From Candidatus Competibacteraceae bacterium (lineage in GTDB: Bacteria > Pseudomonadota > Gammaproteobacteria > Competibacterales > Competibacteraceae): a stretch of 38,465 nt of DNA. The stretch lies in contig JAPUDV010000130.1 in the NCBI GenBank assembly GCA_027492875.1, forward strand, positions 1-38,465, written 5' to 3'. The first letter of the stretch is position 1; every line of letters begins with the position of its first letter. The notes beneath the pieces are model-generated. The model was not told where the DNA came from and made no database searches. It saw only the letters and a program-made list of their open reading frames with translations. The translations under genes were made by a program, and so were the position numbers. Positions 16,138 to 19,988 of this stretch are shown here, in pieces.

Positions 16138-16539
16138 ATGTACACCGTCTGCGTCCGCGACCACTTCATGATCGCCCACAGCTTCCGGGGGGAAACCTTC
16201 GGTCCCGCCCAGCGCCCGCACGGCGCGACCTACGTCGTCGATCTGGAACTGCGCCGTCCCGAACTGGATCCGGACGGCGTGGTCACGGACATCGGCAAGC
16301 TCGGCGACTGCCTGCGCGCCGTGCTCGGCGACCTCAACTTTCGCGACCTCGACCAACTGCCGGAATTCGCCGGCCGCAATACCACCACCGAATTTCTGGC
16401 CCGCGAGATCTTCGACCGCGTCGCGGTGCGGATCGAGGAGGGGCGACTGGGACCGAATGCCGCCGGCCTGAGTTCGATGCGCGTCATCCTGCACGAATCC
16501 CATGTTGCCTGGGCGTCCTACGAAGGGACGCTGCCTTGA
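16138..16539 (+). CDS. Divergent 6-pyruvoyl-tetrahydropterin synthase / QueD-like protein
   Basis: A 133-residue protein with the tetrahydropterin synthase (T-fold) pattern: DHFMIAHSF at the N-terminus, RPHGATYVVDLEL, GRNTTTEFLA and the terminal LHESHVAWASYEG. In QueD and PTPS the zinc is held by three histidines, two in an HGH motif, with a catalytic Cys four residues before it (CxxxHGH). Here the site reads AQRPHGA: the Cys position is Ala24 and the second His of HGH is Ala30; His14 and His28 remain. A canonical QueD reaction is therefore doubtful. Its TGA overlaps the TTG start of the glycosyltransferase. It belongs to a three-gene coupled operon. Fold call good, activity unknown. Confidence 0.85.
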   Translation: MYTVCVRDHFMIAHSFRGETFGPAQRPHGATYVVDLELRRPELDPDGVVTDIGKLGDCLRAVLGDLNFRDLDQLPEFAGRNTTTEFLAREIFDRVAVRIEEGRLGPNAAGLSSMRVILHESHVAWASYEGTLP

Positions 16540-18470: not shown

Positions 18471-18488
18471 GCCGGCGGAGTCGCCGGC
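18471..18488 (+). terminator. Strong short hairpin after the methyltransferase gene
   Basis: GCCGGCG-gagt-CGCCGGC gives a perfect 7-bp GC stem with a 4-nt loop, ending 20 nt before the next start codon. No T-run follows, so it may be a factor-dependent stop, an mRNA-end stabiliser, or an element acting on the downstream gene. Confidence 0.4.
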
Positions 18489-18508
18489 ATTGCCTTGTGG
18501 AGGTTGCG

Positions 18509-19519
18509 ATGCGCCATGCCCAAATCCTGAGTTCCGGCGGCTACGTCCCGGAACGGCTGATGACCAACGCCGAATTCGACCAGTTATTGGGCGAGTCGGT
18601 CGGCGACTGGCTGGTGGAGAATGTCGGTATCCGCCAGCGCTATTTCATGGCCGAGGATCAGACGACTTCGGATCTGGCGGTCGCGGCCGCCCAAGTGGCG
18701 CTCGAGCGCGCCGGTCTGGAGCCGGCCGATCTCGATCGGATCATCGTCGCCACCGACACCCCGGATTACCTCAGCCCGGCCACGGCGGCGGTGGTGCAGG
18801 CCAAGCTGGGCGCGCGCCGCGCCGGCGTGTTCGACGTGAACAGCGCCTGCGCCGGCTGGGTCATCGCCCTGGACATCGCGGCGAAAACGCTGGTCACCGA
18901 GCCCGACGAGCGCTTCGTGCTGGTGATCGGGGCCTATGGCATGAGCCGGTTTCTGGATTGGGGCGACAAGAAGACCGTGACCCTGTTCGCCGACGGCGCG
19001 GGGGCGGTCGTGGTCGGCACCGGTTCGCAACCGGGTTGGCTCGCCACCGCGCTGGCTGCCGCCGGGGAGTACCACGACGCGCTCGGTATCTACACCGGCG
19101 GTACCTTTCGCCCGGCCAGTCTCGCCAACCTGGAGCGATACGGGCCGCCGACGGTGCAGTTCGTGCGCAAATTCCCGGCCACTTTCAACACAGAGCAATG
19201 GCCACCGCTGATCGAGCGAGTGCTGGCCAGGGCCAGTGCCGCGACCGGCACCCGCTTGGGGCCGGACGACGTGGATCGCTATTACTTCACCCAGGTCAAT
19301 CTGCGCACCCTCGAAACCACCATGGCGGCGCTCGGGCAGCCGCTGGAAAAAACCCACTGGATCATGGACAAATGGGGTTATACCGGCTCGGCCTGCATCC
19401 CGATGGCGCTGGACGACGTCATCGCCCAGGGCAAGGGTCCCGAACCTGGCTCGCTGGTGCTGTTCTGCGCCAGCGGCTGCGGCATCGCCCTGGCCGCCTC
19501 GTTGTGGCGATGGCGGTGA
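18509..19519 (+). CDS. 3-oxoacyl-ACP synthase III (FabH-like) family protein with non-canonical active site
   Basis: A 336-residue thiolase-fold condensing enzyme. The nucleophile region DVNSACAGWVIAL places Cys114 as in FabH, and the fold motifs ATDTPDYLSPATAA and LFADGAGAVVVG are clear. FabH uses a Cys-His-Asn triad, with His in an HQAN motif and Asn in a GNTSAAS-type motif. The aligned positions here read FTQVN (Thr261 for His) and GYTGSACIP (Tyr291 for Asn). Both partner residues are therefore changed while the Cys is kept, so it is unlikely to be the housekeeping FabH. No fab genes adjoin it. ATG with TGGAGG five bases upstream. I recall a recurring subfamily of this type but not a proven function. 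Confidence 0.85.
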   Translation: MRHAQILSSGGYVPERLMTNAEFDQLLGESVGDWLVENVGIRQRYFMAEDQTTSDLAVAAAQVALERAGLEPADLDRIIVATDTPDYLSPATAAVVQAKLGARRAGVFDVNSACAGWVIALDIAAKTLVTEPDERFVLVIGAYGMSRFLDWGDKKTVTLFADGAGAVVVGTGSQPGWLATALAAAGEYHDALGIYTGGTFRPASLANLERYGPPTVQFVRKFPATFNTEQWPPLIERVLARASAATGTRLGPDDVDRYYFTQVNLRTLETTMAALGQPLEKTHWIMDKWGYTGSACIPMALDDVIAQGKGPEPGSLVLFCASGCGIALAASLWRWR

Positions 19520-19556: not shown

Positions 19557-19988
19557 ATGATTATCGCCACGCCCGATATCCACATCCCCGAAGACGAACT
19601 TCAGTTTCAATTCAAGCTGGCGTCCGGCCCCGGTGGTCAAAACGTCAACAAGGTGGCGACGGCGGCGGAACTGCGCTTCGATGTCGCCCGTTCGCCCGCG
19701 CTGCCGGACGCGGTACGGGCACGGTTGCGGACGCTGGCTGGCAGCCGCGTGAACCAGAACGGCGAACTGCTGATCACCGCCCGGCGCTTTCGCAGTCAGG
19801 AACGCAACCGGCAGGATGCCATCGAACGCCTGGTCGCCTTGATCCAGCATGCGGCGACGGCACCGAAGCCGCGCGTCAAAACCAGGCCTTCGCGGGCCGC
19901 CAAGCAGCGACGCATGGATGAAAAGCGGCGCGTCGGGGCGAAAAAGCAGGGCCGGCGGGCCAGCGGATCGTCACGGGGATACGAGTGA
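19557..19988 (+). CDS. arfB: Alternative ribosome-rescue factor ArfB (YaeJ-type peptidyl-tRNA hydrolase)
   Basis: A 143-residue release-factor homologue that frees stalled ribosomes lacking a stop codon. The catalytic GGQ motif is in LASGPGGQNVNKVATAAELR (GGQ at 26-28). The C-terminal tail is strongly basic (KTRPSRAAKQRRMDEKRR), which in the family threads into the empty mRNA channel. The start is the ATG at 19557 with GAGG upstream; the frame extends further upstream inside the previous gene without support. Normal family length. Confidence 0.95.
   Translation: MIIATPDIHIPEDELQFQFKLASGPGGQNVNKVATAAELRFDVARSPALPDAVRARLRTLAGSRVNQNGELLITARRFRSQERNRQDAIERLVALIQHAATAPKPRVKTRPSRAAKQRRMDEKRRVGAKKQGRRASGSSRGYE

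Follow-up and report, generated by a model that had tools for sequence, protein, structure and literature searches.

The window analyzed here is a 38,465-nucleotide stretch of Candidatus Competibacteraceae DNA (contig JAPUDV010000130.1). A gene at 18509–19519 on the plus strand encodes a 336-amino-acid protein, identified as KAS III-like by Pfam, an AlphaFold2 model, and a fold match. By direct reading, its frame and start are correct, with an ATG at 18509 and a ribosome-binding-site-like GGAGG at 18499–18503 on the same strand. The protein exceeds the cut-offs of two Pfam families, ACP_syn_III (75.7 bits) and ACP_syn_III_C (72.9 bits). The AlphaFold2 model has a pLDDT of 89.8 and a pTM of 0.91 and matches FabH 4ryb with a Z score of 45.0 and an rmsd of 1.8 over 316 residues, and a viral fold search returned distant matches alone, to type III PKS and KS proteins. 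By Pfam and fold, the protein is a member of the KAS III-fold proteins. An earlier, sequence-only reading of the window had placed a hairpin before the gene. A 7-bp GC-rich inverted repeat can be seen there by eye, between the methyltransferase gene and the KAS gene (18471–18488, plus strand, stems 18471–18477 and 18482–18488), but it lacks a T-tract and is not among the hits of the terminator scan. The gene that follows, at 19557–19988, encodes ArfB, an alternative ribosome-rescue hydrolase (PRK09256, 167.4 bits, cut-off 100). Upstream, the PTPS-family protein encoded at 16138–16539 scores 39.5 bits, far below the QueD cut-off of 89.25.

We aligned the KAS protein with several FabHs, among them those of the window genome and of E. 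coli. In gap-free local alignments, Cys114 (18848–18850), Thr261 (in FTQVN; 19289–19291), and Tyr291 (in GYTGSAC; 19379–19381), all encoded on the plus strand, occupy the columns of the FabH nucleophile Cys, the His of HQAN, and the Asn of GNTSAAS. These correspond to positions 112, 244, and 274 of E. coli FabH. The alignments thus confirm the earlier placement of a Cys-Thr-Tyr (CTY) set at the Cys-His-Asn positions, and each of the three residues is kept in 81/81 members of a set made up of the window protein and the best 80 of 142 relatives from a genome-contig scan. Two further plus-strand codons specify residues found in 81/81 of the same set: Asp83 (18755–18757), at the position of a Glu in HMG-CoA synthase (HMGS), and Cys296 (19394–19396), five residues past Tyr291, where FabH has Ser. 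In the FabHs compared, the three corresponding columns hold His, Asn, and Ser, each in 14 of 14 sequences. The 3.83-Mb window genome also has a second, canonical KAS III, a FabH on contig C63, which is the one match there to the KAS III C-terminal family besides the gene under study.

Cys, Thr, and Tyr occur together in all members of the 81-sequence set, so the substitution is neither chance nor a sequencing error. Judged by record title, the best 80 of 142 relatives come from Competibacteraceae, Chloroflexota, Candidatus Acetothermia, Myxococcales, and Chloracidobacterium, and the clade, as represented among them, spans Competibacteraceae, Chloroflexota, Myxococcota, Acidobacteriota, and Acetothermia. 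All 17 Competibacteraceae sequences, the window's included, carry the three residues; the closest named records among the matches listed, from Candidatus Competibacter, are 94–95% identical to the window protein. A class-level search matched 8 of 369 genomes, and six of these lie outside the Competibacteraceae; two of the six group with Chloroflexota copies, and the other four form a deeper branch that also has Thr and Tyr. L161, the CTY protein that diverges most, represents one more branch and keeps these residues, as does a copy on the Chloroflexota plasmid CP069395 at 43% identity. Phylogeny had been proposed as a check on the earlier reading. A maximum-likelihood tree with 53 rows places the Thr/Tyr-bearing KAS III proteins in one clade, with 27 rows on one side of a branch supported at 100/99, or at 99/99 after removal of 13 trait columns and four long rows. 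None of the FabH or HMGS rows in this tree set has Thr at the His position. The CTY proteins are almost certainly a real, separate clade. Outside it lies a KAS III-like protein from Acetothermia (L171, 1429–2469) with Cys, Gly, and Asp at the triad positions and Asp at the position of Asp83.

The dN/dS ratio between the window gene and five relatives is 0.08–0.16, so the gene is under purifying selection and is maintained. PhlA and PqsB are a model for a non-catalytic or scaffold subunit, and the loss of two triad residues would suit such a role, or that of a pseudoenzyme retained for acyl-CoA binding. We consider this very unlikely in view of the strong purifying selection and of the invariance of Cys114 and the polar residue set over several phyla in the 81 sequences. 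Nor was a constant partner KAS or thiolase seen beside the gene in the loci compared.

What stands in place of the triad is itself well conserved. Cys114, Thr261, Tyr291, Asp83, and Cys296 are kept in five deeper rows as well. Compared with the 14 FabHs, the residues that are clade-specific (each in at least 99% of the 81 CTY sequences) and also present in four deeper rows include Asp83, Tyr87, Tyr143, Pro202, Pro223, Asn227, Trp231, Pro232, Phe260, Thr261, Met286, Tyr291, Gly293, Ser294, Cys296, Met299, and Ser322. The sequence-only reading had named a His and an Asn at shifted positions as the observation that would speak against it, and we found none across the CTY alignment. The sole conserved main-branch histidines without a FabH counterpart, His189 and His283 (each in 98% of the 81 sequences), vary in deeper branches where Thr261 and Tyr291 persist. 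The old triad is therefore not hidden elsewhere, and a new polar set is fixed. The replaced triad and the fixed Asp83/Thr261/Tyr291/Cys296 set fit the earlier suggestion that the enzyme performs a non-decarboxylating step or recruits other residues. Asp83 aligns with Glu in all six HMGS sequences fetched (three bacterial, three archaeal-type), a residue that we take to be the HMGS catalytic base. A YTGS string common with bacterial HMGS was considered and rejected as a match, as it is two residues out of register without gaps and Tyr291 aligns with the HMGS Asn.

We then compared the gene neighborhoods. The earlier reading suggested that the KAS gene could share a pathway with the PTPS/GT/MT trio beside it. 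Among the 17 Competibacteraceae loci compared, only two records, both of the window's genus, share with the window a trio adjoining the KAS gene; the remaining loci have different neighbors, and the family's KAS gene has no constant one. As the trio is found there only within a single genus, a shared pathway is unsupported, and we do not retain it. Elsewhere, the usual partner is a ligase. At 52 of 63 non-Competibacteraceae loci, an acyl-CoA ligase gene immediately follows the KAS gene in the same orientation, at a distance of at most 700 bp and with a median gap of 66.5 bp. In the other 11 loci, four sequences end less than 0.8 kb from the KAS gene, six have a ligase at about 1.0–6.3 kb, and one (L102) has none. 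Three of the 52 downstream ligases share only 42–44% identity with the query ligase and could represent a paralogous second ligase. The best match of the partner ligase is to a fatty-acyl-CoA ligase.

In the window genome, a ligase ortholog is present but unlinked to the KAS gene (66% identity, with the next best match at 34%). Across 37 Competibacteraceae genomes, 14 have both KAS and ligase, five KAS alone, four ligase alone, and 14 neither (Fisher p 0.003 with kinship ignored; 2 of the 19 KAS copies are partial). We are confident that KAS and ligase are partners. Between the window genome and an Anaerolineales genome, the CTY proteins are 64% identical and the ligases 67%, against 42% for the two FabHs. 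KAS and ligase thus appear to have been inherited together, and the identity contrast would fit horizontal spread of a two-gene module. It does not prove such spread, because the three families may differ in evolutionary rate.

Many Chloroflexota loci add genes for alpha/beta hydrolases, an SCP-2-type thiolase, a ChsH2-like OB-fold protein, an SDR, a second ligase, and branched-chain-type ABC genes. On plasmid CP069395, the position of the ligase is occupied by a CoA-transferase-family gene. A thiolase/OB-fold complex was considered as the functional core and rejected. Frequent as it is in Chloroflexota clusters, the OB-fold family PF01796 was matched in 1 of 12 genomes, and in 0 of the 8 Competibacteraceae genomes among them, the window genome included (6 of 14 named genomes matched as controls), so the OB-fold gene is not core. 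A thiolase search matched 0 of 14 genomes, but it had no positive control, and its empty answer is uninformative. An alpha/beta hydrolase as third constant partner was not supported, with matches of 28–34% alone in 8 Competibacteraceae and 2 Myxococcota genomes. Some single loci differ again. In a gammaproteobacterium (L179, 7329–14592), genes resembling pyruvate dehydrogenase E1, E2, and lipoyl-bearing E3 (E3 checked by Pfam, E1 and E2 assigned by reading) are found just upstream of a deeper CTY gene, and L180 has a similar lipoyl-domain gene a few kb from its CTY gene. Downstream of the L161 CTY gene come an alpha/beta hydrolase gene (Pfam) and, one gene on, a similar ORF in the same orientation (L182, 3453–7365).

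A ligase partner could also serve a FabH-like chain starter, in which decarboxylative priming on ligase-activated acids would proceed with rebuilt residues. Trp34, Asn264, and Arg266 are kept in the main branch and align with E. coli FabH W32, N247, and R249, which presumably have roles in CoA and ACP binding. According to PMC10026030, the acyl-CoA synthetase MbcS feeds FabH in S. aureus, a precedent for such an arrangement. PMC4048283 reports a straight-chain fatty acid defect in a fabH mutant of M. xanthus, which would point the same way if the mutated gene is the CTY copy. Decarboxylative priming nevertheless seems quite unlikely: every member lacks the two residues assumed to be required for decarboxylation, and the window genome carries a separate FabH. 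In the Myxococcus xanthus AM003 draft (L104), the CTY protein is the best KAS III match by far; the other two are weak and have a FabH-like motif.

A second alternative keeps the reaction non-decarboxylating and makes the protein an acyltransferase, with Cys114 passing a CoA-derived acyl group to an O, N, or S nucleophile in the manner of ChlB3 and CerJ. According to PMC9573744, these enzymes have a KSIII fold with a rebuilt triad (Cys113-His296-Asp301 in ChlB3) and carry out acyl transfer instead of condensation. The CTY proteins also combine this fold with a rebuilt triad, and the spacing of five between Tyr291 and Cys296 equals that between His296 and Asp301 in the same source. Moreover, a PapA/condensation-type acyltransferase gene (Pfam PapA_C) follows the CTY gene in L052 (11107–12468), as does a similar ORF in L041 (10411–11757). 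However, the triad reads Cys-Tyr-Cys in the CTY proteins against Cys-His-Asp in those enzymes, so the His and Asp of the pair are both missing, and the positions are matched by spacing, not by alignment. An acceptor gene is never constant, whereas the ligase nearly is. We regard heteroatom transfer of this kind as unlikely.

The explanation that we tentatively prefer, taken as a whole, is a ligase-fed acyl-CoA enzyme whose Cys-acyl intermediate would be resolved without decarboxylation by HMGS-like C-C chemistry. The partner ligase would make the acyl-CoA, the acyl group would be loaded onto Cys114, and the acyl-enzyme would then be resolved with no loss of CO2. In the preferred version, this last step would be a Claisen or aldol reaction, or its reverse, as in HMG-CoA synthase. 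The alpha proton would be moved by the putative base Asp83, at the place of the HMGS Glu, and the putative acid or oxyanion donor in place of His and Asn would be Tyr291 together with either Cys296 or Thr261. The invariant Asp83/Thr261/Tyr291/Cys296 set, the single clade, the ligase neighbor, the separate FabH, and the dN/dS values argue for this mechanism. It is probable that CTY-KAS does not decarboxylate; that it performs C-C chemistry and not heteroatom transfer is possible but falls somewhat short of probable. Several observations weigh on the other side. The CTY proteins lack the His that HMGS keeps, the search of the window genome did not find the OB-fold gene, which would have pointed to an HMGS-like complex, and five KAS-only and four ligase-only genomes occur among the 37 Competibacteraceae. 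Asp83 alone is not specific, because the Cys-Gly-Asp protein L171 also has Asp there.

The Ltp2 and Sal aldolases, as presented in PMC12329534, have a thiolase fold and use Tyr (in Sal also Cys) for acid-base work on acyl-CoA. They are a precedent for Tyr replacing canonical residues in this fold. They differ in belonging to the SCP-2-thiolase branch, in having the Tyr at a YDHF/YDCY motif, and in their DUF35 partner, according to the same source. It would go further to propose a new thiolase-superfamily catalytic type, with a stand-alone Cys-Asp-Tyr set, no His, non-decarboxylating C-C chemistry, and its own ligase, passed between phyla as a two-gene module. We find that full combination doubtful, if conceivable.

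Given the same two replacements across a widespread clade and a ligase beside most members, CTY-KAS looks like an unstudied enzyme type, not a worn-out FabH. A search of the open-licence literature found no publication describing such a Thr/Tyr-bearing clade of KAS III proteins. The best curated models call CTY proteins beta-ketoacyl-ACP synthase III, and the plasmid CP069395 copy is annotated likewise. Genomes are thereby assigned a FabH-like activity for which the sequence gives no support. As a natural experiment, the clade bears on the capabilities of a KAS III fold that lacks His and Asn, and its ligase neighbor points to the first substrates to try. Competibacter is a wastewater group that stores glycogen and PHA, and there the gene may mark an unrecognized acyl-CoA step.

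Of the known systems, FabH shares the fold, the Cys nucleophile, and the Pfam domains with the window protein, which is 36–41% identical to the FabHs aligned. It differs in the triad, as the CTY proteins have Thr for His and Tyr for Asn in place of Cys-His-Asn. Further changes from E. coli FabH to CTY are Ser279 to Cys, Thr81 to Asp, Phe87 to Ser, and Phe304 to Ser, together with a CTY insertion that contains part of the FPxTFNxExWP stretch. The window protein scores below the FabH cut-offs (NCBIfam fabH, 208.9 of 292.1; PRK09352, 236.8 of 249). HMG-CoA synthase, which has a thiolase-superfamily fold, shares the Cys and an acidic residue at the aligned position. However, its His is kept in 6/6 sequences where CTY has Thr, and its Asn is replaced by Tyr, so that the Glu-Cys-His set reads Asp83, Cys, and Thr in the window protein. 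With the NCBIfam HMG-CoA synthase model TIGR01835, the protein reaches 35.5 bits, where the cut-off is 360.35. OleA is a thiolase-fold enzyme of non-decarboxylating acyl-CoA condensation, and Chloroflexota CTY clusters have Ole-like neighbor types (ligase, hydrolase, SDR). The CTY partner ligase differs in scoring best as a fatty-acyl-CoA ligase, and PRK09258, presumably the model that covers OleA, gives the window protein 77.9 bits against a cut-off of 285. Since FabH, HMGS, and OleA each fail on a defining feature that we tested, CTY-KAS is best described as a KAS III-fold variant distinct from all three.
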